Shown here one piece after another: positions 36,112 through 49,902 of a stretch of 61,846 nucleotides of DNA. The stretch comes from a virus: positions 1 through 61,846 of the IMG/VR virus record IMGVR_UViG_3300030329_003801, one strand, 5' to 3'. Numbering within the stretch: position 1 is the stretch's first letter; every line of letters begins with the position of its first letter. The position numbers and the translations under genes are program-made. Under the pieces are notes generated by a model, which saw only the letters and a program-made list of their open reading frames with translations, made no database searches and had not been told where the DNA came from.

Positions 36112-36126
36112 TTGAAATGATTTCAT
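36112..36126 (-). promoter_or_regulatory. Copy A of shared palindromic operator
   Basis: TTGAAATGATTTCAT matches TTGnAAwnATTnCAA with one end mismatch. It lies 15 bases before the 36097 start codon, close enough to affect initiation of transcription or ribosome entry. Confidence 0.5.
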
Positions 36127-36221
36127 AAAAAAACTCTCTAATTTAGCTCTCAGAACAAAAAAGTAGAGTCCCTTATACGATTGGTCATGTCCTATACAAA
36201 ACCTACTGTATCAATCATTTT

Positions 36222-36803
36222 TCAATGTTTATCCTCGTATCCTTTAGCATTAGGGTTAGAATAGTAATCTTTTCTAACCGAACTCAAAAAATCCTCATTA
36301 CTAGTCTCTTTTTTTATATTTTCTCTATTAGCATCAATTTCAGTCCTCTCACTTGCAGAAGTAATGTTCTTACTAACATCTTTTGCATCGGTAAAAACAA
36401 CAGGGTTAGCTGGTTTGGTAGGTGGAGCATTACTCGTCTCTTCTTTTCTTAATCTATCCTGTTCTTCTTCTGCTTTTCTTTCCTTATTCCTATGTCCATT
36501 TGTTATTAACTCATAAAAATCTTTATTGGTTAATTGAATGTGTTGTTTATCATCATAAACAATAACCCAAGTTCTTATGTGACTACCAGATGTTGTCGTT
36601 AAATCCCACTTCTTAAAAGAATGAACATTTTTTGTTGGTGATGTACCTGCTGTTAAGTATTCAAGCATTTGAATCTTTCCAAGAATTCTTTCATCTCCAT
36701 TATGATTAAAGTGTAAAGTCCACAACACATCTTCGTTAATGTTTGTTTCTGGATTTATTCCTCCATCACTAATTTGATCTATATTTACAATCGTTTTACT
36801 CAT
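36222..36803 (-). CDS. Unknown protein with charged linker
   Basis: 193 residues. An N-terminal domain of about 100 residues (ending IQLTNKDFYELITNG) has alternating strands and no known motif. A charged helix rich in Glu, Arg and Lys and a Pro/Thr/Ser-rich tail follow. Overlaps the DnaA-like gene by 8 bases, so it belongs to the replication operon. Confidence 0.55.
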   Translation of the reverse strand: MSKTIVNIDQISDGGINPETNINEDVLWTLHFNHNGDERILGKIQMLEYLTAGTSPTKNVHSFKKWDLTTTSGSHIRTWVIVYDDKQHIQLTNKDFYELITNGHRNKERKAEEEQDRLRKEETSNAPPTKPANPVVFTDAKDVSKNITSASERTEIDANRENIKKETSNEDFLSSVRKDYYSNPNAKGYEDKH

Positions 36804-37083
36804 ACAAGTTCCTTATTTCTTCTTTAATTTTTTTACAGTCGGCAAAATCTTTTTCACCAAGACTTTTTCTGTAGTAATCTACCGAAGGTCTTTTTCGATT
36901 AACAATTTTTGCTATTTCTTCCTGTTTTAAATTTGTTAATTCAATCAAGAGAAGAACAATTTTCTTTCGTAAATTAACTTCTTCTTTATTTCTTCTTTCT
37001 TTAGATGTAACAACCCATCTAGGAACATTAAAACGAGAACAACAATACTCTAAAACAATTTCTGGATCTAAAGGTCTGTTCAT
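36796..37083 (-). CDS. DnaA domain IV-like DNA-binding protein
   Basis: 95 residues. The helices match the C-terminal DNA-binding domain of DnaA: L-D-P-E-I-V-L-E-Y, then F-N-V...S-K-E-R-R, then the helix-turn-helix LKQEEIAKIVNRKRPSVDYY. There is no ATPase domain. The domain binds DnaA boxes, so the protein may mark the phage origin, or block host initiation. Its start overlaps the stop of the small gene at 37080. Confidence 0.7.
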   Translation of the reverse strand: MNRPLDPEIVLEYCCSRFNVPRWVVTSKERRNKEEVNLRKKIVLLLIELTNLKQEEIAKIVNRKRPSVDYYRKSLGEKDFADCKKIKEEIRNLYE

Positions 37084-37175
37084 AACAAAACTGATAAAAA
37101 AGCTAGAGCAGGAGTAACTAAAACAAAAATTATAATTGAGATCATTATCATATATGTAATTAAATCTATATTCAT
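37080..37175 (-). CDS. 31-residue membrane mini-protein
   Basis: Reads MNIDLITYMIMISIIIFVLV and continues hydrophobic to the stop. The ATG touches the upstream stop and the stop overlaps the next start (ATGA), so it sits exactly in the gap between two genes. One membrane helix. A role at the inner membrane is possible, but nothing more can be said. Confidence 0.5.
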   Translation of the reverse strand: MNIDLITYMIMISIIIFVLVTPALAFLSVLL

Positions 37176-37399
37176 TAGTTTAACCTTTCTTTTATATCGT
37201 TATATGCTCCTCTTAAATGATCTTCTGCTTTATTAAAAAGAAACAAAACACCTTGTGGGCCACTTTCCTCTATTCTTAATCTGGATTCATCCCAATATTT
37301 TTGTTTAAAAGAAATAGTTTTTTTATCATCATCAATAGTTGCTTTACCTTCTTTTACTATATTAACAATAGTGTTAATAAATTTTTCTCTTCCTGACAT
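37175..37399 (-). CDS. Unknown small protein
   Basis: 74 residues with the opening MSGREKFINTIVNIVKEGK, a short strand pair and the ending EDHLRGAYNDIKERLN. Mostly helical. Strong SD (GGAG). No recognised family; the gene lies between the DNA-binding and nuclease genes of the leftward operon. Confidence 0.5.
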   Translation of the reverse strand: MSGREKFINTIVNIVKEGKATIDDDKKTISFKQKYWDESRLRIEESGPQGVLFLFNKAEDHLRGAYNDIKERLN

Positions 37400-37412
37400 T
37401 TCTACTCCTTTT

Positions 37413-37808
37413 CTACAGTTGACCTGATAACTGCATTTCCGTTCTTAAATTTGCTCCTTTTGAGCGAAGTAATTGTATCCAATTACAAAATGAATCATAG
37501 TCTATTTTTGCCTTCAAATATTCTTTTCTAGCAGGACTAAGTTGATCTTTAATAAATGTTGTGCTGTACTCTTGACTTGCATTAGCTCTTATCTCGCTTT
37601 CTCCTACTCCTTTTCCCCCATCCAGAAATTCCGTAGATTTTCCGTCTCTCGTTGGTTTCTTTAAGTCTATTAGATCCTCGTATTTTGACTGTGCTTCTAT
37701 GAGAACGTACCCTAGTTCTCTTTGTCGGTGAATTATCTTGTTGGGATCGAATTGTAATATCTCCCAATCCTCCTTTATGGGCATTCCAATATCTTTTTGC
37801 TCTGCCAT
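37413..37808 (-). CDS. Helical protein overlapping the HNH gene
   Basis: 131 residues, mainly helical, with ARKEYLKAKIDYDSFCNWIQ and a C-terminal LRSKGANLRTEMQLSGQL. Its first 227 bases are shared in another frame with the HNH gene's basic tail. Preceded by GGAGG. Unknown, but its coupling to the nuclease suggests a joint role in recombination or DNA processing. Confidence 0.6.
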   Translation of the reverse strand: MAEQKDIGMPIKEDWEILQFDPNKIIHRQRELGYVLIEAQSKYEDLIDLKKPTRDGKSTEFLDGGKGVGESEIRANASQEYSTTFIKDQLSPARKEYLKAKIDYDSFCNWIQLLRSKGANLRTEMQLSGQL

Positions 37809-38049
37809 AGGGATCTACCTCCTTGTTAATTTCCCAGAATTTTTTTTCAGTAATTCTGTGCAACTCTGAGTGATGAAAAACACAGAGTGGCACAGTAAAT
37901 TGATCACCCACCTTGAGCGACATCGCTTGTGGTTGTGATAGCGTAAGATGATGTGCTTGGACATCACTTCTTCCACAAATGAGACATGGCTGTTCAGAAA
38001 TTCTTCGTAAGTGTTGTTCTGATCTGTATCTCGGTTCATCACTTCTCAA
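37582..38049 (-). CDS. HNH-type nuclease, DUF968-like
   Basis: 155 residues from a TTG start overlapping the SSB-like gene. Zinc and active-site residues: C22-L-I-C25, A-H33-H34, C56-V-F-H59-H60 and H64, followed by EVDPYGRAKRYWN. This fits the DUF968/HNH group of phage nucleases. The C-terminal 70 residues are very basic and encoded where the next gene overlaps. The enzyme probably cuts DNA during recombination or concatemer processing. Confidence 0.65.
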   Translation of the reverse strand: MRSDEPRYRSEQHLRRISEQPCLICGRSDVQAHHLTLSQPQAMSLKVGDQFTVPLCVFHHSELHRITEKKFWEINKEVDPYGRAKRYWNAHKGGLGDITIRSQQDNSPTKRTRVRSHRSTVKIRGSNRLKETNERRKIYGISGWGKRSRRKRDKS

Positions 38050-38294
38050 AATGGAATATCTGGTTCTTCTTCTGAAGATCTATTACTATTAAAACCAGAA
38101 GTTTTTTCTTGAGGTGTTGTAATTTTAAGAGAAACCATAGGAGAGCCATCCTTTGTTTTTCCACCCCACAACGCACCATTGTAAACACCAGCAGGAATAG
38201 TCTGCTCTATCGTAATTTTATTATTTGTATAGCTAGGGTGCTTTTCATCCTTTTTATAATCGTTTTTAAATAGATTTATTTTAACTTCAACCAT
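38046..38294 (-). CDS. Single-strand DNA-binding-like protein
   Basis: 82 residues. The central part (ITIEQTIPAGVYNGALWGGK then SPMVSLKIT) fits a small OB-type barrel. The C-terminus is an acidic tail ending D-I-P-F, the signature by which bacterial SSB recruits partners. Directly beside ERF, the exonuclease and a nuclease, a role in coating single-stranded DNA is likely. Shorter than bacterial SSB (about 170 residues). Confidence 0.6.
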   Translation of the reverse strand: MVEVKINLFKNDYKKDEKHPSYTNNKITIEQTIPAGVYNGALWGGKTKDGSPMVSLKITTPQEKTSGFNSNRSSEEEPDIPF

Positions 38295-39021
38295 CTACTG
38301 TTTTCCTCCATGCTCTGACATTATTCTCAACATCTTTTCTGAACCTTTCAGATAATCCATTGACAAAATTTACATTATCTTTGACGAGTTTGTCAATATC
38401 GTCATTTGATTTTAATTTTCTTAATTCTGATAGAAAATTATTAACTTTTTCAACTTCTGATCCTCCGTTTTCTTGACCTCCAACCACTTTAAGATTAGTA
38501 TTTTTCTTACTATTTGATTGAAATTTTAAAGTATCATCAAAATTGTGTGCAGGTAAACCATCTGCATCTGGAGAAGCAACCATATCTTTATCTTCTCCTG
38601 TCGGTATCATAAACAATCCTCTTAAAAACTGTTTTAAAGCATAGGATTGTGCTGTGCCGTAGGCTTGAGCTCCACGAGGATCAACTCGTATTGTTCTTCG
38701 TAGTGGGTGTGCCCACATCTTGCCAGATTTGTGGACAAGAATAAAATTAAAGACAATAATCAATGATTTATTATCAACTTTCTCATCAATCTCATCCATC
38801 ATTATAGTTAGTCCAGCTTCAGCCAATACCTTACCATAAACTTCTAGGAAATCATCAATACCTGCAAAGTTATAGTTTGCAAATTCATTTCGATTTCCTT
38901 TATAAAGTTTAACTGCCCCACTTGATACCTCATTGAGAGCATTAGCAATCTCTGGTGGCATGGGTGGAAGAGAGGGTAAGATACTGTTCTCTGGAACTTG
39001 GACATATTTAATATCGTTCAT
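38287..39021 (-). CDS. ERF-family single-strand annealing protein
   Basis: 244 residues from ATG 39021, which has GGAGG five bases upstream and overlaps the exonuclease stop (TAATG); an ATG 12 bases earlier would place the SD inside the gene. The ERF core is clear: Y-N-F-A-G-I-D-D, a long strand region, then AQAYGTAQSYALKQFLRGLF and M-I-P-T-G-E-D-K-D. ERF proteins anneal complementary single strands, here paired with the adjacent exonuclease. Confidence 0.85.
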   Translation of the reverse strand: MNDIKYVQVPENSILPSLPPMPPEIANALNEVSSGAVKLYKGNRNEFANYNFAGIDDFLEVYGKVLAEAGLTIMMDEIDEKVDNKSLIIVFNFILVHKSGKMWAHPLRRTIRVDPRGAQAYGTAQSYALKQFLRGLFMIPTGEDKDMVASPDADGLPAHNFDDTLKFQSNSKKNTNLKVVGGQENGGSEVEKVNNFLSELRKLKSNDDIDKLVKDNVNFVNGLSERFRKDVENNVRAWRKTVDG

Positions 39022-39911
39022 TAGAACCTCCATATCTTTCTTCTTGCATTAAGTTTTTCTTTATTTTTCCAAGTCCAATCATCTGGATTTGGTGGATGCA
39101 TCTCAGCAACTTCTTGCCAAGTTTGACACCTAGAAAGTGTTGTTTTCAGCGAAGAAATAACTGAATACAATCTTTCTTTCCAATCTTCGTCTGGATTTTC
39201 TTCCATATATTCTCGAATTGAAAACTTATTTGTATCAGCAGAATAGGTTACTTTTTTTGTTTTCCTATCTGTTGATTTTCTTGATAAAATTTGATGAAAT
39301 TCAACATCACCTTTTTCCTTATTGTAATCTTGTCCATAATAATAAAACATTCCTTGCAACCAATAACCAAAATTCATTTCAGACGATTGTTTTTTCGGAA
39401 CTTTAATATCTACTGTTAAAGGAAATCTATCTTTCTCAAATTCATAATCGGTATAACCAATCATGTCTGGTAGATCTTCATCACCAAATAATTCAGATAG
39501 ACTAATAATAACTTTCTTTTGTGTACCTTTATAGTTTCCAGATTTTTGAACAACATCAATTACCTTATCTACCATTGGTCGAAGTGTTTTTCTTTTTTCT
39601 TTTTCCTCATCTGATTGAGGAAGAATATCACCATTCTCATCTTTTTTTTCTACTGCCCCATCAAATAATGCTTCTGCATAATTATAAACTGTGTCTGGAT
39701 TATTAGGTCTTTGTTCAGCAAAAAGAGTACCAGAACTCTCAATAACATTACCCCCAATCATAGCTATATTGGGAGAAAAGCTACATTTAAAACCATAAGT
39801 CATTAACCAATCAGAATTATAACAAAGGTAAGAATTCAAGTGGGCAGGTGATAAATGGTGAATACCAAATCTTTTCCATACTAATGGATCTCTAAATTTT
39901 GTGTCTATCAT
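39021..39911 (-). CDS. RecB/Cas4-like PD-(D/E)XK exonuclease
   Basis: 296 residues. An N-terminal LSPAHLNSYLCYNSDWL motif as in phage RecB-like nucleases, then the active-site pattern IGYTD155-YEF and V-D168-I-K170, and a Q-motif YWLQGMFYYYG. These residues bind metal and cut DNA ends. Together with ERF and the SSB-like protein it forms a red-like recombination set. Start overlaps the upstream stop. Confidence 0.8.
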   Translation of the reverse strand: MIDTKFRDPLVWKRFGIHHLSPAHLNSYLCYNSDWLMTYGFKCSFSPNIAMIGGNVIESSGTLFAEQRPNNPDTVYNYAEALFDGAVEKKDENGDILPQSDEEKEKRKTLRPMVDKVIDVVQKSGNYKGTQKKVIISLSELFGDEDLPDMIGYTDYEFEKDRFPLTVDIKVPKKQSSEMNFGYWLQGMFYYYGQDYNKEKGDVEFHQILSRKSTDRKTKKVTYSADTNKFSIREYMEENPDEDWKERLYSVISSLKTTLSRCQTWQEVAEMHPPNPDDWTWKNKEKLNARRKIWRF

Positions 39912-40093
39912 GGTAATTTCTCCTCCGATATAAGAGTTGCATTTTCATAATCTTTTTCCTCAACATAAAGATCATTATAAGTGATTTCATAACCACCTTC
40001 TTTAACTAAAATTTTTTCTGCTTCTTTCTTTGTATGTGCTTCAATCTCATAAACTAATTCTGCACTTACACTAAATGTATATCTATTTTTCAC
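39908..40093 (-). CDS. DpnD/PcfM-like small protein
   Basis: 61 residues from a GTG start with GGAGG upstream. The pattern Y-T-F-S-V...YEIEAHTKKEAEKIL then EGGYEITYNDLY resembles the DpnD/PcfM group of short alpha/beta proteins, found on mobile elements. Another one lies at 43777. No function is established. Confidence 0.55.
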   Translation of the reverse strand: MKNRYTFSVSAELVYEIEAHTKKEAEKILVKEGGYEITYNDLYVEEKDYENATLISEEKLP

Positions 40094-40269
40094 GAATACC
40101 TCCTTCTACAATTAGGACACAAACGATGAAATTTGTGTTCACTTAAAAATTCATTATTGCAAATTTCAAAATTCATACACTTCTTCATTTCTTTTTTATG
40201 CTTGTTATCAGCTTTTGGTTTTGAATTGTTATAATAATCTGGTTTTTCCATTTTTAATTCTTTCTTCAT
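40090..40269 (-). CDS. Small zinc-ribbon protein
   Basis: 59 residues. The C-terminus has C31-M-N-F-E-I-C37, F-L-S-E-H-K-F-H-R-L and C51-P-N-C54, a four-cysteine zinc finger typical of small phage proteins in replication operons. Stop overlaps the next GTG start. It may bind DNA or regulate transcription. Confidence 0.65.
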   Translation of the reverse strand: MKKELKMEKPDYYNNSKPKADNKHKKEMKKCMNFEICNNEFLSEHKFHRLCPNCRRRYS

Positions 40270-40277
40270 GGGTAGTT

Positions 40278-40415
40278 TTATCTGCCTACGATTTCTCGCA
40301 CTTCAATGGCACTACCCAAGCCAGTTAAATTTCTGTAATTTGAAGGTAGAGCATCAAGCAGGATGTAAAGAAAACTAAAGACCTTCCTGTCAAAATCTTT
40401 TTCACATTTTCTCAC
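40278..40415 (-). CDS. Small protein, first gene of the leftward operon
   Basis: 45 residues from GTG 40415, chosen because GGAGG lies seven bases upstream; the frame is open to 40475. Reads VRKCEKDFDRKVFSFLYILL, then ALPSNYRNLTGLGSA. Mostly hydrophobic then polar. Family not recognised; position next to the operon promoter suggests early expression. Confidence 0.5.
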   Translation of the reverse strand: MRKCEKDFDRKVFSFLYILLDALPSNYRNLTGLGSAIEVREIVGR

Positions 40416-40536
40416 TACTCTACCTCCAGTATCAAGGGATGAGAACAAAAAACGAATAAGGGAATATACAAACAATTAGGATATATCCGTCTTGTTGCCA
40501 TTGTATATAATTTTTTCATTTTTATTCTCATATACC

Positions 40537-40564
40537 CATATAATGACTTTTTTGACATTATCAA
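40537..40564 (-). promoter_or_regulatory. Leftward promoter of the replication operon
   Basis: On the minus strand TTGATA (40559-40564), a 16-base spacer and TATATG (40537-40542) form a sigma70-like promoter about 120 bases before the 40415 start. Two further TTGACA boxes point rightward at 40552-40557 and 40579-40584, overlapping or adjoining it. Confidence 0.5.
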
Positions 40565-40578
40565 CACTTTTTTTTAAT

Positions 40579-40810
40579 TTGACAAAACTTTTTTTACACA
40601 TTAAAGAATATATATTAACTTGGTTGACTATTATGAAAAGTCTTGTCTGGTAATCGTGAGAGTCCTAGTGCTGAATCGAAAGACCACTTTGATTTGAGAG
40701 TTCGAGGACATAAAGACACTACAGGATATGGGTCAATAATTAAGTTCCTGTCTCGATGAATTGACATCGTGAGTATAAAACACACCCAAGTTAATATAAA
40801 GGGAGTATAA
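40579..40810 (+). promoter_or_regulatory. Rightward promoter and structured leader
   Basis: TTGACA (40579-40584) with weak TAAAGA (40602-40607) would start a leader of about 195 bases before the 40811 gene. It has four stems: GTCCT/AGGAC (40662-40666 with 40705-40709) enclosing AATCgAAAG/CTTTGATT (40674-40694), ACAGGA/TCCTGT (40721-40726 with 40746-40751), and CGATG/CATCG (40754-40758 with 40765-40769). ATCGTGAG occurs twice. It is richer in G+C than the flanks and has no open frame of note. It could be a regulatory RNA, an origin, or both. Confidence 0.45.
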
Positions 40811-41701
40811 ATGGGAGATGGAAAAAAGAAAATAATTTTTGTGAAGTGGTTTCCAGACGATTACATTACAGGGTGTGAACTCTTAACTTGGCAAACTGAA
40901 CTCGTTTACTCAAGAATAATACAAAGAATTTATAATACTAGAAACAACCTATATGACGAAGAAAATACTTGGAATATACTTATCCAAAAGATAGAAAAAT
41001 ATGCAGATATAGAGAAAATAAAGGAAGAATTACTAAAAAAAGACAAGATTTATTTAGAAGATGATAAGATAAAAAATCAGGGGTGTGATAAATACCTTAA
41101 AGAAGCTCTAGATTATTTAGAAGATCAAAGAAAAAAAGGTAAAAAAGGGGCAGATAAAAGATGGGGTGATGGCACAGCCAATGGCACAGCTAATGGCACA
41201 GCTATAGCCAACCATAAACCACAAGCCACAAACCATAAACCATTAAATTATAAAACTATAATGGAGACATGGAACAGGATAGTCCCCACCTCTCATATTC
41301 AACAAATGAATGATACAAGAAAGAAATTGTTTCAATCTAGGTTTAAACCTTTCTTTAAAGAAAGTTATGAGGAATGGGAGAAATTTTTAAATAGAATATC
41401 CAAGATTAGTTTCTTATGGGGAAGTAATGATAGACAATGGAAAGCAGACTTTAACTGGGTTTTAAATGAAAACAATCTTCTCAAAATATTAGAGGGAAAG
41501 TATGAAACTGAAACAAAAAATACTTCTACATTTTCATCTGATAGACATTATGATTCAAGGTTAAAAATGTTTAGCGAGGGTAAAGTAACTAATTTTATGA
41601 AGGTTTTTGCTAATCAACATGAGGGTGAAGTAAGAGAAATGGTACAAAAAGGTGATTTAACTAAAGAAAGAGCAACAGAATTGGGGATAAAAATTGGCTA
41701 A
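40811..41701 (+). CDS. Replication initiator / helicase-loader-like protein (DUF1376, DnaD type)
   Basis: 296 residues. The N-terminus (FVKWFPDDYITGCELLTWQT, then ELVYSRIIQRIY) matches the DUF1376 winged-helix type. A linker holds a triplicated N-G-T-A repeat. The C-terminus has FLWGSNDRQWKADFNWVL and LKILEGKYE, typical of phage proteins that load host helicase at the origin. This agrees with the absence of a phage polymerase. SD GGGAG upstream. Confidence 0.7.
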   Translation: MGDGKKKIIFVKWFPDDYITGCELLTWQTELVYSRIIQRIYNTRNNLYDEENTWNILIQKIEKYADIEKIKEELLKKDKIYLEDDKIKNQGCDKYLKEALDYLEDQRKKGKKGADKRWGDGTANGTANGTAIANHKPQATNHKPLNYKTIMETWNRIVPTSHIQQMNDTRKKLFQSRFKPFFKESYEEWEKFLNRISKISFLWGSNDRQWKADFNWVLNENNLLKILEGKYETETKNTSTFSSDRHYDSRLKMFSEGKVTNFMKVFANQHEGEVREMVQKGDLTKERATELGIKIG

Positions 41702-42218
41702 AAGAGGAAGACCTAAAAAAGAACCTGTTGTAAGGGATAAAGGGACACCAGAACTGATTATGCACAAAACAATGCTAGTTGGTGATGGAGATTCCACACT
41801 AACGACTACTGCTATTGATATTCATTTAGCGAGAAAACTTATATCAGTAGATCAACACACAGCAGGAAGAAGATTTTCTCACCTACACTATGTAGAATTT
41901 GGCAAAGTTTATAGTCAAAGTAGCATGGGGAAGATATTATCTGGTCAATCACAAAGTAGGGAAATATTGGGAAATCCAAGCAGATTTGAGGAGTTTATTC
42001 ATAAGTATTATGATGGGGCAAGATTGTACTTATACACACATGGTGGCATAAATGTGTTAAGAACAGCACTAAGTATCATTTGCTATGATAAAAGACCTAA
42101 TTATCTTAAAAATATCTATGAGCCAATGGACGATATTATACTTGCTGAAGTGAGAAAAAGTTTAACTTTATTAAAAAAATTTTTTAATGAGCCAGTTAAG
42201 AAAATCATTGGAAAATAG
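41694..42218 (+). CDS. AT-hook-bearing phage protein of unknown function
   Basis: 174 residues from a TTG start overlapping the upstream gene by 8. The start KRGRPKKEP is an AT-hook-like motif. The body has DKGTPELIMHKTMLVGDGD, DQHTAGRRFSHLHYVEFG and a helical end. Proteins with this G-T-P-E-L and Q-H-x-A-G pattern recur in marine phages next to replication genes. Probably DNA-binding; function unknown. The stop lies inside the hairpin GGAAAAT/ATTTTCC (42210-42227). Confidence 0.6.
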   Translation: MAKRGRPKKEPVVRDKGTPELIMHKTMLVGDGDSTLTTTAIDIHLARKLISVDQHTAGRRFSHLHYVEFGKVYSQSSMGKILSGQSQSREILGNPSRFEEFIHKYYDGARLYLYTHGGINVLRTALSIICYDKRPNYLKNIYEPMDDIILAEVRKSLTLLKKFFNEPVKKIIGK

Positions 42219-42227
42219 CGATTTTCC

Positions 42228-42373
42228 TTGACAAATTGAAATTTTTTCTTTAAAATTACACTTATAATTGTAAAATGGGTTAAGTATGTCAAGAGTTATT
42301 TAAAATAATCTTGAATAAATATTTTTACATAAAAAAAACACAGTAAAACAGCCGATAATATCGGCTTTTTTTT
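42228..42373 (+). ncRNA. Candidate small RNA: promoter to terminator without a gene
   Basis: TTGACA (42228-42233), a 17-base spacer and TAAAAT (42251-42256) form a near-consensus promoter. About 90 bases later GCCGA/TCGGC with eight T (42351-42373) ends transcription. No open frame longer than a few codons lies between, and the next gene is on the other strand. A perfect TATAAT sits at 42263, and a reverse TTGACA at 42287-42292 faces the first. A short antisense or regulatory RNA is the simplest reading; an unused spacer is the alternative. Confidence 0.45.
42351..42373 (+). terminator. Intrinsic terminator
   Basis: GCCGA, loop TAATA, TCGGC, then eight T. It ends rightward transcripts just before the convergent glucosaminidase gene, whose stop it adjoins. 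Confidence 0.75.
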
Positions 42374-43042: not shown

Positions 43043-43532
43043 TAAATATTTTTTTTAGTTTTAAGTAATCTTTTCTGGGAATAATAAATCGCAAATCACT
43101 ATTAACTTCAGTAATATCAAAACCCTCCCTATCTTCTAAAAAAACTTCTAATTCACACCAAAATTCATTTTTCTCTTTGTATTGTTTTCTGACTTCTAAA
43201 TTACCACACCAATTCTCGTACATAGTATCTTGTGCTTCTTCCAAAAAACTTTCACCAGAGAGTGCTACATAGTAATCACCTTTTTGATAGAAATAATCAT
43301 CTTTATCAAAAGTTTTTAATATTGTTATGTCCTCAAACTTGTTGATATTGTATGTTGCCCATTTAGAATAGTTTACTTCAAATGCATAAAAAGGTTTATA
43401 CTTTTCTGATTTAACTAAAAGTAATCTTCTTTCAGTAGCAGACCACTTGTAAGGAGTTAAATAAACACCCTTTACATTCATTTTTGTTTTACCATCAAGA
43501 GTAAGTCCTGTGTATATATCTGTTTCAATCAT
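43035..43532 (-). CDS. Unknown acidic/aromatic protein
   Basis: 165 residues from ATG 43532, chosen because it overlaps the upstream stop (ATGA) with GAGG eight bases before; an ATG 18 bases upstream is possible. Mixed alpha/beta with many aromatics (DDYFYQKGDYYVALSGESFL). No family recognised. Confidence 0.55.
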   Translation of the reverse strand: MIETDIYTGLTLDGKTKMNVKGVYLTPYKWSATERRLLLVKSEKYKPFYAFEVNYSKWATYNINKFEDITILKTFDKDDYFYQKGDYYVALSGESFLEEAQDTMYENWCGNLEVRKQYKEKNEFWCELEVFLEDREGFDITEVNSDLRFIIPRKDYLKLKKIFNE

Positions 43533-43780
43533 TGTATTTGCCTCAACCATGCATTAGGGATCTTATCCAATTTCCTTTTTTGCAATAAACATAAGGCAAC
43601 AGGATTAGGAATAATAGTCATACCATTTTTATAGTTATAAACTTGTCGCCAAGTTAAACCAAGATATGTTGCTGTATCTAGAACATTACCTTTGAACATT
43701 TCACCAACCAATTCATCAAATTGTTCAGAAGTCATTTTCTTTTTTCTTTTAACAAAAGTTTCTAATTCAATTCTTTTCAC
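43529..43780 (-). CDS. HTH-type DNA-binding protein (putative regulator)
   Basis: 83 residues from a GTG start. Residues about 17-70 fit a helix-turn-helix: SEQFDELVGEMFKGNVLDTA, YLGLTWRQVYNYKNG and NPVALCLLQK, as in small Cro/antitoxin-like repressors. It is a candidate to bind the palindrome repeated through this region. No toxin partner is obvious nearby. Confidence 0.55.
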   Translation of the reverse strand: MKRIELETFVKRKKKMTSEQFDELVGEMFKGNVLDTATYLGLTWRQVYNYKNGMTIIPNPVALCLLQKRKLDKIPNAWLRQIQ

Positions 43781-43950
43781 CTAACCTCCTCTATTTCACA
43801 AAATTGATAATCTATAAATTTTTCTCGGTGTACTTGGTCATCACTATAACCTTGTTCATCAAAAATCTTTATAGCTTCTTTTTCTGTTTTAGCTTTAACA
43901 TCAATTTCTTTACCATAATGTTCAGCAATTAAAATTCTATAAGTTTTCAT
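43777..43950 (-). CDS. DpnD/PcfM-like small protein
   Basis: 57 residues: MKTYRILIAEHYGKEIDVKA, then T-E-K-E-A-I-K-I-F-D-E-Q-G-Y. Same strand-helix pattern as the gene at 39908. Stop overlaps the next GTG. Function unknown. Confidence 0.55.
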   Translation of the reverse strand: MKTYRILIAEHYGKEIDVKAKTEKEAIKIFDEQGYSDDQVHREKFIDYQFCEIEEVR

Positions 43951-44183
43951 TATGCCCTACCACTTTCTTTATCCACATAAATATCAGCTTCAAGATCTAT
44001 CTTTTCTAAAAGTATGTGACTAGGTATATCATTTCTATTAATAAAAATATGATCCTTTTCTTTATTTAATGCATTAGTTTCATAAAGATATTCAATCATT
44101 TTTGTTAATGTAAATGTTGTTAATTTTTTTTTGTCTTTGTTATAAAAATATAAAAGCAAATCTTTTTTATTAGTTCCTACCAT
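43950..44183 (-). CDS. Unknown small protein
   Basis: 77 residues with a charged middle helix (TLTKMIEYLYETNALNKE) and a C-terminal strand region (DIYVDKESGRA). Overlaps its upstream neighbour by 14 bases and abuts the next one. Not recognised. Confidence 0.5.
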   Translation of the reverse strand: MVGTNKKDLLLYFYNKDKKKLTTFTLTKMIEYLYETNALNKEKDHIFINRNDIPSHILLEKIDLEADIYVDKESGRA

Positions 44184-44418
44184 TTTTTTCCTCCTTTTTT
44201 TTTTGAAAGTTCTTTAATGCACCATCAGATAAATGACTAATTATTTTTCCAAAGTGCATAACAGCAGAACGAAGTGAAGATGAATTTAAAAAATCAAGCA
44301 TAGAAAGTTCAACTATTTTTTCTATGTCCTCCCTTGATAGTTCCTCACCCTCACTTAATTTCTGCCCAATCACCAATGATTGTGTGTGAAATTTATCAAA
44401 TTCCTTATCAAATTCCAT
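44170..44418 (-). CDS. Unknown helical protein
   Basis: 82 residues, helical: SLVIGQKLSEGEELSREDIE and LRSAVMHFGKIISHLSDGA, with a lysine-rich end. Starts directly after the upstream stop. Could be a small regulator of host functions; no motif supports more. Confidence 0.5.
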   Translation of the reverse strand: MEFDKEFDKFHTQSLVIGQKLSEGEELSREDIEKIVELSMLDFLNSSSLRSAVMHFGKIISHLSDGALKNFQKKKEEKNGRN

Positions 44419-44419
44419 A

Positions 44420-44869
44420 TTAATTTATTGATAACTCCTCTATTTTTTCAATTTGATTTGCTGATAAAGGAAGCAAAGTGCTATCTTTATCTATTGAACG
44501 ACCAATAAACATTTTAAACTCTATTTCATGAATAGTGTTTTTACAATCTTGGTCTTTACTGATACCAGCTCTCGCTGTTTCAATTTTCTCAATTTTAAAA
44601 AAACGAAAACTATTCTTGTCTGGATCGCAAAGAGTATTCATAAGTCTAAATATTCTTTTTTGTGCATGTTCATAAAGTTTAACAACATCACCAACCTTAA
44701 TTGTTTTATCAATAAGATTGCTTTGTTCATGTTTTTTTATATCTTCTGGTAAACATTCTAAAACTTCTCTAACCATTTCTTTATTTGGTTGAAAGAAAGT
44801 AGTTGTTGTGCCATCTTTTTCTTTTTTTTCTTTAAGAACTTTAACTGATGGTTTATTTTTATTTTTCAT
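44420..44869 (-). CDS. Unknown protein, first in its leftward unit
   Basis: 149 residues. Lysine-rich start, then a helix with EMVREVLECLPEDIKKHEQ and a beta-rich second half containing KVGDVVKLYEHAQKRIFRLM. Its promoter region holds copy B of the palindrome 41 bases upstream, and the SD is AAGGAG. Not recognised. Confidence 0.5.
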   Translation of the reverse strand: MKNKNKPSVKVLKEKKEKDGTTTTFFQPNKEMVREVLECLPEDIKKHEQSNLIDKTIKVGDVVKLYEHAQKRIFRLMNTLCDPDKNSFRFFKIEKIETARAGISKDQDCKNTIHEIEFKMFIGRSIDKDSTLLPLSANQIEKIEELSIN

Positions 44870-44909
44870 TTTTTACTCCTTGTTAATTATAAAAGAGTAA
44901 ATCATAGTA

Positions 44910-44924
44910 TTGAAATGATTGCAA
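44910..44924 (-). promoter_or_regulatory. Copy B of shared palindromic operator
   Basis: TTGAAATGATTGCAA is a perfect match to TTGnAAwnATTnCAA. On the minus strand a TATGAT -10-like box follows, so the palindrome would lie in the promoter spacer. Flanking CATAG is shared with copy C at the same distance. Confidence 0.6.
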
Positions 44925-44940
44925 GAACATTTTTAACTAA

Positions 44941-45165
44941 TTATTTTTCCCTTTCTTTTGCTTCTTCATCTGTAATAATTTCATAATCCCACATAAACAT
45001 CTCGCATATTTCATCAAGTGGCATAGTTTTTAAAGTTTCTTTATCTTCTTCATTATCCATGTCAGTTTCATGTATATCAATTAATGCAGTTCTTAAATCT
45101 TCTTTATCTTCATAAACTTGATAATTCCAACTTCCTTGTAAATCTATTCTTAATACTTTACTCAT
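44941..45165 (-). CDS. Small acidic protein
   Basis: 74 residues, strongly acidic, with IDLQGSWNYQVYEDKEDLRT and LDEICEMFMWDYEIITDEE. Small acidic phage proteins often mimic DNA or block host enzymes, but this is only a possibility here. A perfect hairpin lies upstream (45192-45217). Confidence 0.5.
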   Translation of the reverse strand: MSKVLRIDLQGSWNYQVYEDKEDLRTALIDIHETDMDNEEDKETLKTMPLDEICEMFMWDYEIITDEEAKEREK

Positions 45166-45191
45166 TATTTCATTTTTTCCTCTCGAATATT

Positions 45192-45217
45192 ATGGGGACG
45201 ACTTATTTCGTCCCCAT
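45192..45217. other. Perfect 10-bp hairpin between leftward genes
   Basis: ATGGGGACGA pairs with TCGTCCCCAT around CTTATT. Neither side has a T run, so it is not a classic terminator. It may be an RNA processing or stability site between the genes at 45227 and 45165. Confidence 0.6.
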
Positions 45218-45226
45218 TAGGAGTAA

Positions 45227-45727
45227 TTAATTTATAACACTTTCTTTTAATACTGATTGCAAACTTTTAGAAATAGGAACGACTTTTTTATCTAATTCCT
45301 TTTTCTCTTGTATTCTTTCGTTCTCAACATCTTTATAGACATTGTTGGTAATATCTCGAAGAACACCAGATACACAATTATTAACAAATTTCTTTCTGGT
45401 TAATCTTTCTGCATTAGTCCAAAGTCCTACATGGTTTTGTAAATCTTTAATTGTAATACGATAAGGTTTCACAACTCCTTTATCATCTCTCATCATTAAA
45501 GAAGTATTATATAGTTTTTCGACTAATCTCATTCTGATTAACCATTCATCAATATTGCTTTCTGTTATTTCACTTAATCCAACAATCATTGTTTCATAGA
45601 CTAAGTGCTTGGTAATTGGTTGTATATCGAAAACTTTACTACCTTTCTTGTTTTCAACAGGGACATAGTAATCATCTGGGTTTCTTTTAAATCCCATAAT
45701 ATTTCTGATACTCCATCTTAAAGCCAT
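45227..45727 (-). CDS. Unknown helical protein
   Basis: 166 residues beginning MALRWSIRNIMGFKRNPDDY, with a basic helical C-terminus (ERIQEKKELDKKVVPISKSL). Contains LRDITNNVYKDVEN. No recognised family. It abuts the following small gene with a two-base gap and SD GGAGG lies in the upstream end. Confidence 0.5.
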   Translation of the reverse strand: MALRWSIRNIMGFKRNPDDYYVPVENKKGSKVFDIQPITKHLVYETMIVGLSEITESNIDEWLIRMRLVEKLYNTSLMMRDDKGVVKPYRITIKDLQNHVGLWTNAERLTRKKFVNNCVSGVLRDITNNVYKDVENERIQEKKELDKKVVPISKSLQSVLKESVIN

Positions 45728-45729
45728 TT

Positions 45730-46041
45730 TTACTCACCTCCTTCAAATTTAATAGTTTGAACTGCTGTATCTCTATCAGCAAGATATCGATAACTTTCAT
45801 CATGTTCAGATACCATTTCTACATCAAAATTATTTTCTAATGCTTCTAAAATAAAACTATCATCATTTCTACCATATCTAAAAACATCAATTACATTGTT
45901 GTCTTTATCGGTTGCAAAATGAAGATAATTTTTACCATCAAAAAATAATTTATAATTATTTCTAAAAATAACATCAAATTCTTTAAGTTTTTTAATGTCA
46001 TTTAATGGTATTTTTGCAGTTGGTCTATAATATGTGGACAT
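45730..46041 (-). CDS. Unknown small protein
   Basis: 103 residues from ATG 46041. The frame is open 18 bases further to a TTG, but those codons are the ribosome-binding site itself (GGAAAGGAGG), so ATG 46041 is the start. It overlaps the upstream stop (TAATG). Contains DVIFRNNYKLFFDGKNYLHF and a C-terminal LADRDTAVQTIKF. Not recognised. Confidence 0.6.
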   Translation of the reverse strand: MSTYYRPTAKIPLNDIKKLKEFDVIFRNNYKLFFDGKNYLHFATDKDNNVIDVFRYGRNDDSFILEALENNFDVEMVSEHDESYRYLADRDTAVQTIKFEGGE

Positions 46042-46301
46042 TACACACCTCCTTTCCAATTTGGTAAATTCATATATTCTTTCATATCCATATCTAAATA
46101 ACCATTATCACCCTCGTTGTCAGATAACTGCACTCTTGCTCTAATTTCAGTATCATTATGAGGTAAAGCAAAAGTAATAGGATAGAAAAAACTAGTATTA
46201 AGTTTATCCAAATTATCTGGTTTAAATGTTCTATTCCTATTTGCTTTAATAGATTTGTTATTTATTTTTATTAATTCTTCTTTGGTAAAATATTTTGGCA
46301 T
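46041..46301 (-). CDS. Unknown small protein
   Basis: 86 residues from ATG 46301, which has GGAG eight bases upstream; a GTG at 46349 overlapping the previous gene is the alternative. Contains YPITFALPHNDTEIRARVQL and DNEGDNGYLDMDMKEYMN. Not recognised. Confidence 0.5.
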   Translation of the reverse strand: MPKYFTKEELIKINNKSIKANRNRTFKPDNLDKLNTSFFYPITFALPHNDTEIRARVQLSDNEGDNGYLDMDMKEYMNLPNWKGGV

Positions 46302-46341
46302 TTTTAAATCTCCATTTCCTAATGCTGTTTTAATAACTAAT

Positions 46342-46839
46342 TCACACACTTCTTTTTACAATCTCATTAAAAAGTTTTGAATAATATTCATTTTCATCCA
46401 TATCAATAATAACAGAAACTATTCTATCATCTTCGTTCTTAATGGCATAGACGGGATAACAACCATCCCCATAGCCACTAGAAAAAGCAACACCAACTTC
46501 TGCACCATGTTCATTAATCATCTCGCCACCACCTTTTTCAGATTTTGTGAGCATACATGCTCCTTGATAAGAGTATTCTTTGCTATGAGCTTCTGGGTGT
46601 GGCAGTTCAATAAAAATACCATCTTTAATTAATTCATTCATAGTTTTATTATATTCGGAAATAATTTCATCATATTGACTAAAGTCTTTTCCATACTGCA
46701 ACTCTTTACCAGAAGCAGTATGTCTGTATCGTCTAACATCTCTATAATCATCATTTTTAAATGAAGAAACATAACATGGATCAGTAATCATTAATTGACC
46801 ACTATCCACTCCAACACTACCTATATAAACTTTTTCCAT
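46342..46839 (-). CDS. DUF4241-like protein
   Basis: 165 residues from ATG 46839, with AAGGAG seven bases upstream; an in-frame ATG at 46884 lacks one. The start VYIGSVGVDSGQLMITDPCY and the end VAFSSGYGDGCYPVYAIKNE, followed by R-I-V-S-V-I-I-D-M-D, match the DUF4241 pattern (S-G-x-G-D-G-x-Y). That family is widespread in bacteria and phages without a known function. Confidence 0.6.
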   Translation of the reverse strand: MEKVYIGSVGVDSGQLMITDPCYVSSFKNDDYRDVRRYRHTASGKELQYGKDFSQYDEIISEYNKTMNELIKDGIFIELPHPEAHSKEYSYQGACMLTKSEKGGGEMINEHGAEVGVAFSSGYGDGCYPVYAIKNEDDRIVSVIIDMDENEYYSKLFNEIVKRSV

Positions 46840-46888
46840 TTTTAACTCCTTTGTTGAAAGTTTATTCATATCTTTTTTTTGCATAGAT

Positions 46889-46903
46889 TTGAAATAATTG
46901 CAA
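46889..46903 (-). promoter_or_regulatory. Copy C of shared palindromic operator
   Basis: TTGAAATAATTGCAA, a perfect match, 50 bases before the 46839 start codon. It differs from copy B only at the central base and shares its CATAG flank. Confidence 0.6.
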
Positions 46904-46905
46904 CA

Positions 46906-47244
46906 TTATTCAATTTTTTCTAATACTTCTTTGTCTTTTCCCTCTAAAGCAATAAGTATTTCTCTTAATTTATCTTCTTTTTCCTTTGTAAAACAATGCA
47001 CTCTATCAAACATAGGAAAACCATTAACACTCTTTGGTAGTTCATGTTTTTCCCCATAATAACAAAAGAAAAAAGTATGTTCTTTTTTAACACACCCAAA
47101 AGCTATTGGTAAAAAAATCATTCTTAAATTATCTGCCCATCTTTGAGGATTTTCATCATAACATTCCCAAGAGGTAAAAACACAGTTAGCCCTATAATCT
47201 AGAGCTAACTTTTTGATTTCTTTTAGTTCTTTATCTGTTATCAA
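46906..47244 (-). CDS. Unknown protein
   Basis: 112 residues from a TTG start overlapping the upstream stop. Contains DYRANCVFTSWECYDENPQR, a hydrophobic F-L-P-I-A-F-G segment, and a Lys/Glu-rich C-terminal helix. Three cysteines in all. Not recognised. Confidence 0.5.
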   Translation of the reverse strand: MITDKELKEIKKLALDYRANCVFTSWECYDENPQRWADNLRMIFLPIAFGCVKKEHTFFFCYYGEKHELPKSVNGFPMFDRVHCFTKEKEDKLREILIALEGKDKEVLEKIE

Positions 47245-47543
47245 TTTAACCCTACCTCTTTCATAATTTGGGGAAATAGTTTAACAAATTGTTCATCTTG
47301 CTTTTTACCAGAATGAATTAATTTGGCATATTCACGAACACTTATTTGTATTTCATCAATCAAATAATTGATATGATCGTCAATATTTTCTGGTGGCATG
47401 ATAAATATATCTCTATCTGCTTTCTTACACCAAGCATCTAGGACTTGTTCTAATTTGGATAATAAAAACTGTTTTTGATCTTTTCCTTTAAAAGAAGAAG
47501 CAAACAATTTTAAATCCTCTTTGGTTACATCTGGTTTAATCAT
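47241..47543 (-). CDS. Unknown helical protein, first in its leftward unit
   Basis: 100 residues, helical: TKEDLKLFASSFKGKDQKQF and HINYLIDEIQISVREYAKLI. Its ATG is immediately preceded by seven AT repeats with no visible SD, so the message may be leaderless. Copy D of the palindrome is 21 bases upstream. Confidence 0.5.
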   Translation of the reverse strand: MIKPDVTKEDLKLFASSFKGKDQKQFLLSKLEQVLDAWCKKADRDIFIMPPENIDDHINYLIDEIQISVREYAKLIHSGKKQDEQFVKLFPQIMKEVGLN

Positions 47544-47563
47544 ATATATATATATGGTACTTT

Positions 47564-47578
47564 TTGAAAAAATTTCAA
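47564..47578 (-). promoter_or_regulatory. Copy D of shared palindromic operator and leftward promoter
   Basis: TTGAAAAAATTTCAA. Read leftward, its TTGAAA (47573-47578) with an 18-base spacer and TATATA (47549-47554) forms a promoter starting at about the ATG of 47543. A rightward TATACT (47606-47611) for the 47646 gene lies close by, so the site could control both directions. Confidence 0.55.
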
Positions 47579-47645
47579 TAGTTTATTTTGACTTTTTTTA
47601 CTTTTTATACTAATGATTAATAAACCATTAAAAAAGGAGTATAAA

Positions 47646-47789
47646 ATGGCTAATAAAGAAAAACCAAGTAGACCAATGTTCACCAAATGGAGAAAAAACA
47701 AAGGTCAGTTTGCAAGAAAGGATTATCACAAGGAACTTCCTAAAAAAATAGCTGAATATCTTGGAAGAAAAGAGGTAAGTCATGGATAA
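47646..47789 (+). CDS. Small basic protein
   Basis: 47 residues, MANKEKPSRPMFTKWRKNKG and an Arg/Lys-rich helix. SD AAGGAG seven bases upstream. One of only three rightward genes in this mostly leftward region. Overlaps the next gene by 8 bases. Confidence 0.55.
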   Translation: MANKEKPSRPMFTKWRKNKGQFARKDYHKELPKKIAEYLGRKEVSHG

Positions 47790-47955
47790 TAGGAAAATTA
47801 AAAAGAAATCAAAGGCACAAAGGGAAAGAGAAAAAGCCGAATTAATCCAAGAGCTAGGGTATGATCCAGATCGTGATCCAATGCAGGATTATTGGGATCA
47901 TGAAAGCGACAAGATCGCTATTCACCAAGAATTTCACGATAACGAAACATCATAA
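47782..47955 (+). CDS. Small charged protein
   Basis: 57 residues: basic N-terminal helix (KIKKKSKAQREREKAELIQE), then an acidic end with D-P-D-R-D-P-M-Q-D-Y-W-D-H-E. Translationally linked to the previous gene by overlap. Ends directly at the hairpin 47961-47977. Not recognised. Confidence 0.55.
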   Translation: MDNRKIKKKSKAQREREKAELIQELGYDPDRDPMQDYWDHESDKIAIHQEFHDNETS

Positions 47956-47980
47956 AAAAAGGGGGGAAATTCCCCCCTAA
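47954..47980 (-). terminator. Terminator of leftward unit 48003-49141
   Basis: GGGGGGA and TCCCCCC pair around AAT. On the minus strand the stem is followed by seven T, so it stops leftward transcription; the rightward side has only a weak T stretch. Confidence 0.75.
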
Positions 47981-48002
47981 TTCATAATATTATATAATTC
48001 AT

Positions 48003-48218
48003 TTATTCGTCTGGCTCGAACTCCTCTCCATAGTCAGCTACTTTCTGCCTATATTCTGTGGTATCATCTTTAAATATACAAGGATCATATTCGTTTTTTC
48101 TATCCTCAATACATTCATCACAAACATAACCACAAGAAATGCCCATTTTATCATAAAGAATAAAAGGAATATTATCTTTCCTACAATTAGGACATTCATC
48201 AAGTATTCTATCAAACAT
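48003..48218 (-). CDS. Small zinc-binding-type protein
   Basis: 71 residues with C9-P-N-C12 and C29, C33-D-E-C36, a probable zinc ribbon, and an acidic tail ending EEFEPDE. It could bind DNA or a host protein. Last gene of its unit. Confidence 0.55.
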   Translation of the reverse strand: MFDRILDECPNCRKDNIPFILYDKMGISCGYVCDECIEDRKNEYDPCIFKDDTTEYRQKVADYGEEFEPDE

Positions 48219-48220
48219 AT

Positions 48221-48589
48221 TTACCTGTCCCTGTTTATTTTAATATTATCTTTACTGACATTGAGGCAAACAACATATAAATACCAAACATCAATATCAT
48301 AGGGAAACATTCTGGTTTTACAGCAGTTAAAATGATAACCTTTTTTATCAAATTCTTCCTTGTAATAATCTCCCATATGATTGTCAGTAAAATAATCTTC
48401 TATATTCTTACATAACCAAAATGTTTCACAACTTTGATTTTTACCATTAAAGGCAATCATATTGGGGTTATTTTGTTCAATGGGAATAATCCTGTCACAT
48501 TCTTTGACATAATCAAATTCTTGCTTGATTTGTTCCCATTCTTTATCAGTAAAACTTCTTTTCTGGTGTATATAGTTTGTATATCCCAT
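48221..48589 (-). CDS. Unknown conserved-type protein
   Basis: 122 residues: MGYTNYIHQKRSFTDKEWEQ, several cysteines and aromatics, and DIDVWYLYVVCLNVSKDN. The opening G-Y-T-x-Y with D-K-E-W recurs in small proteins of phages and mobile elements. Function unknown. SD AAGGAG upstream. Confidence 0.55.
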   Translation of the reverse strand: MGYTNYIHQKRSFTDKEWEQIKQEFDYVKECDRIIPIEQNNPNMIAFNGKNQSCETFWLCKNIEDYFTDNHMGDYYKEEFDKKGYHFNCCKTRMFPYDIDVWYLYVVCLNVSKDNIKINRDR

Positions 48590-48615
48590 TTTTATTATAT
48601 CTCCTTTTTAAAGTT

Positions 48616-48645
48616 AAAAAGGGGAATAATTAAATTCCCCTAGTT
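48616..48645 (-). terminator. Hairpin terminator between leftward genes
   Basis: GGGGAAT and ATTCCCC pair around AATTAA (48621-48640); reading leftward five T follow. It may partly stop transcripts from 49141-48650. Confidence 0.6.
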
Positions 48646-48649
48646 TTAG

Positions 48650-48736
48650 TTATATTAATAAATTAACTGCTAGAATAATTATAATACTAATTAAAAGAAC
48701 AGAAACAATAAAAGTAAATTTTCTTATAAAGTTCAT
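48650..48736 (-). CDS. 28-residue membrane mini-protein
   Basis: MNFIRKFTFIVSVLLISIII and a hydrophobic end. The ATG overlaps the upstream stop (ATGA). Basic N-terminus plus one membrane helix, the typical positive-inside form. Comparable to the mini-proteins at 4476 and 37080. Confidence 0.5.
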   Translation of the reverse strand: MNFIRKFTFIVSVLLISIIIILAVNLLI

Positions 48737-48939
48737 TTTGCTTTTACTCCTTTTTCTAGTTCTTTCAGCTTGGTAATAATCTCACTAGCGTCAAGCTTAT
48801 TTAGTGGTAGTGTTATATCAACATCATTCTTAAAATGTGGAAAGTTTGAAACAATAGAATTAATCAACCAAAGCTGTTTAGAACTAGCTGATTGATCCTT
48901 TGCTTGATCTCTCCATTTATCACTTATTTCAAAAGCCAT
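48733..48939 (-). CDS. Unknown small protein
   Basis: 68 residues: MAFEISDKWRDQAKDQSASS, then KQLWLINSIVSNF and a C-terminal lysine-rich helix. The S-x-K-Q-x-x-x-I pattern occurs in small proteins of other phages. Not recognised further. Confidence 0.5.
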   Translation of the reverse strand: MAFEISDKWRDQAKDQSASSKQLWLINSIVSNFPHFKNDVDITLPLNKLDASEIITKLKELEKGVKAK

Positions 48940-48943
48940 TTTT

Positions 48944-49141
48944 TTATACTCCTAGTTTTTCAATTTCAATATTTTCATCATGAAAATAATGTCTGGTTAT
49001 ATACTCACATTGTGAAATTAATTTCACTAAATGCTTCTTTTGTTCTTTTTCAAGATCAGAAGAAATGATTTGAAGTCCCTTACTATCAAAATCTTCTATA
49101 ACTTTTTCAAGATCTTCGGTAAGATTTTCAAAGTAAAACAT
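48944..49141 (-). CDS. Small acidic helical protein
   Basis: 65 residues: NLTEDLEKVIEDFDSKGLQI, KKHLVKLISQCEYITRHYF and an acidic end. SD AAGGAG upstream. First gene of the unit controlled from the 49186 region. Not recognised. Confidence 0.5.
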   Translation of the reverse strand: MFYFENLTEDLEKVIEDFDSKGLQIISSDLEKEQKKHLVKLISQCEYITRHYFHDENIEIEKLGV

Positions 49142-49185
49142 ATTTTTATTACTCCTTTGTTAAATGGTTTAATTTCTTTTATATT

Positions 49186-49208
49186 ATGTTTGCAAATATT
49201 ACAAACAT
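49186..49208. promoter_or_regulatory. Copy E of shared palindrome inside a larger inverted repeat
   Basis: ATGTTTG and CAAACAT flank nine bases; TTGCAAATATTACAA (49190-49204) matches the shared motif with one mismatch. It lies between divergent genes (49141 leftward, 49250 rightward), and overlaps likely promoter boxes on both strands, so it could control both. Confidence 0.6.
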
Positions 49209-49249
49209 ATATTAATAATAAATTATTAATTAAATATAGGAGTTATTAT

Positions 49250-49627
49250 ATGAATGAATTACATATATTAAACAAAGATGAAGCAAGAGCCGAAAAGGTG
49301 GCAATGCTTAACGATCAATTAAGATCAAAAATAGGTCAAGGTCTACCTGTTGGAAATAATGATTTTGTCATAACTCAAGGTATCTGGGATTGTTTCAATG
49401 ATGATGAAATGACAACCTTATTCCACAATATTAAAACTTTTGACGATTTCAGCGAGGACAACGATCCACACAAAGAGAGAGACTTTGGATCACTCACAGC
49501 AAAAGGAAGAAAAATATTCTGGAAGATAGACTATTACGATAATAACCTTGAATATCATAGCCCAGATAATACAGATCCAACACAAACAAGACGAGTTATG
49601 ACAGTTATGCTGTCTGACGAGTATTAA
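49250..49627 (+). CDS. DUF3768 family protein
   Basis: 125 residues from ATG 49250, chosen for its SD (AGGAG, seven bases); the frame is open further upstream through the operator region. Signature: LNDQLRSKIGQGLPVG, F-D-D-F-S-E-D-N-D-P-H-K-E-R-D-F-G, KIFWKIDYYDNN and RRVMTVMLSDEY. DUF3768 proteins are common in alphaproteobacteria and their phages and plasmids. Function unknown. Confidence 0.8.
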   Translation: MNELHILNKDEARAEKVAMLNDQLRSKIGQGLPVGNNDFVITQGIWDCFNDDEMTTLFHNIKTFDDFSEDNDPHKERDFGSLTAKGRKIFWKIDYYDNNLEYHSPDNTDPTQTRRVMTVMLSDEY

Positions 49628-49633
49628 ACCAAT

Positions 49634-49666
49634 AAAAAAAGGGGAGTAAAAAACTCCCCTTATTTA
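49634..49666. terminator. Bidirectional terminator
   Basis: GGGGAGT and ACTCCCC pair around AAAAA. Seven T follow on the minus strand and TTATTT on the plus strand. It separates the convergent genes 49250 and 49684. Confidence 0.8.
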
Positions 49667-49683
49667 ATCATATAATAATTAAA

Positions 49684-49866
49684 CTATTTAACCATAGCTA
49701 GAAAATCTTTCTTCGCTTTTTGAACTTCTTCATTACTCATCAACATCAATCTTCTAATGGCTTCAATTCGTTGATCTTCAGTTAAATAGGGTTTCATTAA
49801 TCCAAACAAGTATTTGTGTAATGAACTTCTAAACAGATCAATTTTTACTTTCTTTGTTTTATTCAT
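49684..49866 (-). CDS. Unknown small basic protein
   Basis: 60 residues, helical and basic: KVKIDLFRSSLHKYLFGLMK and RLMLMSNEEVQKAKKDFLA. Lies alone on the minus strand just before the terminase genes, with copy F of the palindrome 22 bases upstream. Possibly a regulator; not recognised. Confidence 0.5.
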   Translation of the reverse strand: MNKTKKVKIDLFRSSLHKYLFGLMKPYLTEDQRIEAIRRLMLMSNEEVQKAKKDFLAMVK

Positions 49867-49887
49867 GATTAGATCTTTAAAGGAAGT

Positions 49888-49902
49888 TTGAAAAGATTAC
49901 AA
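49888..49902 (-). promoter_or_regulatory. Copy F of shared palindromic operator
   Basis: TTGAAAAGATTACAA fits TTGnAAwnATTnCAA. Read leftward, TTGTAA with 17 bases to TAAAGA could be a promoter for the 49866 gene. It is 40 bases before the small terminase ATG on the other strand. Confidence 0.55.

Follow-up and report, generated by a model that had tools for sequence, protein, structure and literature searches.

A conserved 15-bp palindrome at the heads of early transcription units in an uncultured marine phage, a probable operator for a shared regulator

Five exact copies of a 15-bp palindrome were found between genes, at the heads of transcription units, in the genome of an uncultured marine virus of bacteria. 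We consider it probable that these copies, designated sites B to F, are operators of one dimeric transcription regulator acting on the early accessory operons and probably also on the terminase/late operon, with repression as the favoured mode of action. The DNA analysed (hereafter, the window) comprised the 61,846 bases of the IMG/VR virus record IMGVR_UViG_3300030329_003801. The virus was assigned to the tailed phages because the window carries genes for the small and large terminase subunits, a portal protein, a tail-collar protein, an Erf-like annealing protein and a DnaD-like helicase-loader. The large terminase was approximately 41% identical to those of the Pelagibacter phages HTVC027P and HTVC023P. 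In the first 50 kb of each, the gene order differed from that of the window, and the motif was represented by one chance-level match in HTVC027P and was absent from HTVC023P. A host search via the terminase among bacterial genome contigs gave no match. The window also contains a single ORF of 4823 aa (15462–29933) that encodes a giant protein of the polyvalent type, has ddrB-like ParB and Strawberry-notch helicase domains and occupies nearly one-fourth of the genome. A small heat-shock gene of the Hsp20/alpha-crystallin type (50738–51154) is placed between the terminase subunit genes, and a similar ORF occupies the equivalent position in one related contig (L012).

The motif can be written as TTGNAA-N3-TTNCAA, in which the half-site TTGNAA, often extended to TTGNAAT, flanks a short centre. 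Exact palindromes begin at 44910 (B), 46889 (C), 47564 (D), 49190 (E) and 49888 (F), with letters exactly as given in the first-pass annotation, which had proposed a scan of the whole genome against shuffled sequence. With a pattern drawn up post hoc from the sites already seen, TTGNAANNNTTNCAA occurred five times within 36–50 kb, whereas 200 first-order Markov shuffles gave 0.165 occurrences on average (shuffle maximum, 2). No other palindrome of the same architecture was present more than twice in that region. Only 10.4% of the region's 15-mers are intergenic, whereas B to F all lie wholly between genes (5/5; p ~1e-5 under random placement). Elsewhere in the window, one exact match was found, at 8074, inside a gene. 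When the 15-mers of the whole window were ranked by weight matrix, B to F scored 17.6–20.0, and a leave-one-out scan recovered each of them without a competing 15-mer. Below them ranked a 15-mer at 36112 (14.6) and an intragenic one at 29353 (13.7), and all remaining 15-mers scored 10.2 or less. The palindrome motif represented by B to F is thus real.

Transcription units were defined by gene directions and terminator-like hairpins, and every unit starting within 44.8–49.95 kb had a palindrome 20–67 nt before its start codon. Site B (44910–44924; TTGAAATGATTGCAA) lies 40 nt before the leftward start at 44869, and the operon behind it runs from 44869 to 42372 and includes a helix-turn-helix (HTH)-like gene at 43529. 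Site C (46889–46903; TTGAAATAATTGCAA) lies 49 nt before the leftward start at 46839, which belongs to a DUF4241 gene and has Shine-Dalgarno support. The other three exact palindromes occupy divergent gaps: D (47564–47578; TTGAAAAAATTTCAA) between the leftward start at 47543 and the rightward start at 47646, E (49190–49204; TTGCAAATATTACAA) in the middle of the gap between 49141 (leftward) and 49250 (rightward, a DUF3768 gene), and F (49888–49902; TTGAAAAGATTACAA) between 49866 (leftward) and 49942 (rightward). The rightward gene at F encodes the terminase small subunit (49942–50466, plus strand; phrog_6299, E=5.5e-12) and opens the packaging/late operon, which is read rightward from F. Two further gaps before leftward genes (45166–45226 and 48590–48732) contain terminator-like hairpins and no palindrome; the genes behind them are presumably transcribed through from C and E, respectively.

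The first-pass annotation had placed the palindromes upstream of leftward genes. This is true of the sites and too narrow as a description, for each of D, E and F precedes a rightward gene just as it does a leftward one. It had also counted a copy at 36112–36126 (site A; TTGAAATGATTTCAT) as a full member of the set and named a degenerate copy at 42236, neither of which was confirmed. The last base of site A is mismatched, the site is isolated and lies 14 nt before the start codon of the leftward gene at 36097, its matrix score barely exceeds that of the intragenic 15-mer at 29353, and it falls outside the coverage of all relatives; it is a doubtful, isolated candidate. The 42236 copy scored 8.3, which is background, and lies between two convergent gene ends, and it was rejected as a regulon member.

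The leftward replication/recombination block at 36–40 kb contained no exact site. Other elements were observed nearby. A recurring leader-like element on the minus strand (TGGCTTGGRTAGTGCCA ... AAACTAYCC) was present at 40272–40323 of the window, at about 2800–2990 of L023 and at 7898–7951 of the related contig L006; its loop, GGRTAGT, can pair with ACTAYCC in a pseudoknot-like manner. The L006 copy is inserted between E and its leftward gene and shows a compensatory G-C to A-T change, and the element had no Rfam match. At 40611–40798, directly before the helicase-loader gene at 40811, inverted repeat arms of 24 nt enclose approximately 140 nt. This stretch is approximately 95% conserved, its folding energy is ordinary (z -1.0), and it is possibly a replication origin or a structured RNA.

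Conservation in relatives, proposed earlier as a check, was borne out for the arms of B to F. The complete set is kept in L006 (IMGVR_UViG_3300030419_003948), which aligns to 37.4–59.4 kb of the window in blocks of 89–98% identity (approximately 95% over the shared stretch). There, B (at 3714), C (5659) and D (6334) are identical to the window copies, B despite a replaced gene on its right. The shorter contigs L008 and L012, at approximately 80% identity to the window, both keep E and F. Across L006, L008 and L012, changes in E are confined to the centre, though the rightward gene differs, and the sole change in F is at the central base. Orthologous sites therefore have invariant arms and differ solely at N or central positions, even where the flanks, and in places the neighbouring genes, have been replaced. 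The sites are carried by four contigs (three besides the window), and the conservation of B, C and D is drawn from a single contig of approximately 95% identity. Sites of this kind, 15-bp dyads whose outer arms stay fixed and whose centre varies freely, are the hallmark of a protein that binds DNA as a dimer.

The gene to the right of E has been exchanged: the window has DUF3768 (49250–49627), L006, L008 and L012 have DUF2958-like genes, and L012 also has DUF7249. Named phage matches of DUF3768 were Rhizobium phages and those of DUF2958 included Erythrobacter and Roseobacter phages, so these genes hint at an alphaproteobacterial host. L012 contains two E-like sites, with rightward genes behind them at 554–892 and 1012–1404. 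The second site, at 954, precedes the extra rightward gene (1012–1404, DUF7249), and because another rightward gene (DUF2958) lies behind it, it can serve a rightward gene alone. Together with the three divergent sites in the window, this extra copy shows that the restriction to leftward genes was wrong, and its position before an extra gene indicates that the site accompanies gene starts through gene exchange. Overall, the earlier reading of the palindromes as a phage regulon is supported by their enrichment, their exclusively intergenic placement at the heads of units and the conservation of their arms, and is to be taken without its leftward-only scope, site A and the 42236 copy.

The same observations bear on whether the 15-mers could have a role outside transcription, for instance in DNA packaging or partition or as a methylation-like tag. 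F adjoins the terminase genes and the sites are clustered in one part of the genome; however, promoters are indicated by the position of the sites, strictly ahead of gene starts, and by the additional copy at the extra gene of L012, and we regard a role outside transcription as extremely improbable.

Outside this clade, the set was not recovered. Among 80 terminase-relative loci, only scattered single motif matches were seen beyond the clade, none of them regulon-like, and the locus with 65% terminase identity (L027) had no motif in its 5.7 kb. A pattern scan of viral contigs (44 stretches) likewise gave just single or paired unrelated palindromes outside the clade. Three unrelated contigs (L105, L109 and L125) carry two similar palindromes of the TTGTAAAGCTTACAA and TTGTAATAATTCCAA types, 105 bp apart. 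This distribution is unexpected for a general host box, which is what the sites would be if they were operators of a borrowed host regulator, for example, a Fur-superfamily protein. TTGNAAT-N-ATTNCAA does resemble the 7-1-7 boxes of Fur, PerR and Zur (TGATAATNATTATCA, TTATAATNATTATAA and TCGTAATNATTACGA) in its 15-bp heptamer-1-heptamer layout, and B and C share the core AATNATT; that core, however, is not kept in D, E and F. A phage-encoded Fur-family binder was rejected because no FUR domain was found in the window, and a Fur-type binder would therefore have to come from the host. This origin for the sites appears quite unlikely.

Promoter geometry was considered from both edges of the palindromes. 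Hexamers resembling a -10 element scored best at an offset of 3 nt from the palindrome edge, as seen at B, on the left and right of E, and at the extra L012 copy; no such hexamer was present at this offset on either side of D or leftward of F. When all gene-facing sides were counted, the signal was reached by 0.07–0.23 of shuffles and was not significant; it was reached by 0.015 of shuffles for the sides with Shine-Dalgarno starts, a subset picked afterwards. The geometry is suggestive of operators that overlap promoter cores.

Two other readings of this geometry were weighed. In one, the TTGNAA half-sites would be plain sigma-70 -35 elements and their symmetry incidental in AT-rich divergent regions. 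TTGAAA matches TTGACA at five of six bases, and in a promoter scan hexamers 16–18 nt downstream were paired with F (49888) and with E (49190); the same scan, however, gave 29 matches compared with 50 in shuffles. A -10 hexamer 16–18 nt downstream at most sites would be expected of -35 elements, whereas mean -10 scores 8–9 nt past the palindrome (a spacer of 17–18 nt) were near background, and at E and F the far arm is conserved across relatives as well as the near arm, all of which makes plain -35 elements very unlikely. In the other reading, the palindromes would be bound by a phage middle-phase activator that, positioned beside the -10 element, replaces a missing -35 element and turns the operons on together, a logic like that of T4 MotA promoters. 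By inspection of the aligned flanks, the sides with a -10-like hexamer at 3 nt (B, both sides of E and the extra L012 copy) have no good TTGACA-like -35 element at 16–18 nt, as this reading would predict. The palindrome would, however, fall inside the spacer between -35 and -10, a position more typical of steric repression, the -10 element is missing from the expected place on several sides, and no recognisable activator was found; activation is accordingly judged unlikely.

Under the preferred reading, one dimeric regulator would bind B to F, each in the promoter region of a short operon and 20–67 nt from the start codon, so that the early accessory operons (42.4–49.9 kb) would be controlled jointly and, via F, probably the terminase/late operon too. 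Repression would be the simplest mechanism and is preferred to activation both on general grounds and because of the precedent of phage SPbeta: a dimer bound over the promoter core would keep host RNA polymerase out and might, for example, silence early genes at a later stage of infection.

The binder would probably be phage-encoded, and the leading candidate is the HTH-like protein of 83 aa at 43529–43780 (minus strand), whose sequence (DTATYLGLTWRQVYNYKNGM) resembles an HTH by eye. Its gene belongs to the operon headed by site B, which would create negative feedback if this protein binds. The protein is 100% identical in L148, the sole relative covering it, and had no significant match in Pfam, PHROGs, NCBIfam or the PDB. 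A homologue search returned just the one close contig, no phage, and a plasmid match at chance level. Its AlphaFold2 model, predicted from the single sequence, is all-helical and of low confidence (pLDDT 60), and its fold matches, weak and none of them significant, include the DNA-binding domains of the LacI family and lambda repressor. Its role as the binder of the palindromes is a plausible but unproven guess. Apart from the terminase small subunit, the scan of early proteins gave just one other recognisable candidate for DNA binding, an HTH protein resembling DnaA domain IV (36796–37083, minus strand; Bac_DnaA_C, E=6e-5, and DnaA model, E=4e-6, both below cut-off), which is less likely to be the binder. 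The predicted structure of a further candidate, at 41694–42218, was unusable (pLDDT 34).

In phage lambda, CI and Cro act on palindromic operators that have an odd centre and lie in divergent early control regions. The sites described here share this form; they differ in being single and spread over 5 kb instead of clustered as at OL and OR, and no CI-like gene, HTH_3 domain (none at E<=10) or integrase was recognised in the window. The nearest known arrangement is that of Bacillus phage SPbeta, in which about ten intergenic promoter regions contain a 15-bp motif, SPBRE; this motif is the binding site of the master repressor MrpR and had been noticed in silico long before MrpR was identified as the repressor (PMC10516654). 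The likeness drawn here is one of layout and presumed working, a 15-bp element in several promoter regions of one phage. MrpR is derived from a tyrosine recombinase and acts in a temperate phage, whereas the window had no Phage_integrase family match in a sequence-profile test, which a very diverged recombinase fold could escape. The palindromes were therefore not filed in the SPBRE/MrpR family, as no tyrosine-recombinase-like repressor was found. Phage P1 likewise has many dispersed operators for one repressor, C1 (22 sites per genome), but these are 17 bp long and asymmetric (PMC8546580), whereas the sites in the window are palindromic and confined to one region. The stoperators of Cluster A mycobacteriophages are also bound in many copies by one repressor; they are 13 bp long, asymmetric, oriented with transcription and mostly located away from promoters (PMC6550527), in contrast to the present sites, which are all symmetric and precede gene starts. 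B to F show two of the features expected of a multi-site operator regulon, namely, a short element repeated above chance in promoter regions and its retention in relatives despite changes in the flanks, most strongly at E and F. Such arrangements are already known from other phages, which limits the surprise of finding one here.

A broader interpretation, which we put forward tentatively and as a possibility only, is that the 43529-like protein represents a previously undescribed regulator family, a Cro-like switch in a clade of marine phages that are uncultured and apparently lytic, and that early accessory genes are exchanged there as cassettes carrying their own operator copy. If this were true, newly acquired genes would join the regulon at once. 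The sites provide a concrete, testable map of transcription control in a clade of uncultured marine phages, in which almost no early gene has a known function, and the palindrome can be used to recognise regulon genes on related fragments. Overall, the results suggest that the exchangeable accessory genes of these phages are wired into one common control site.
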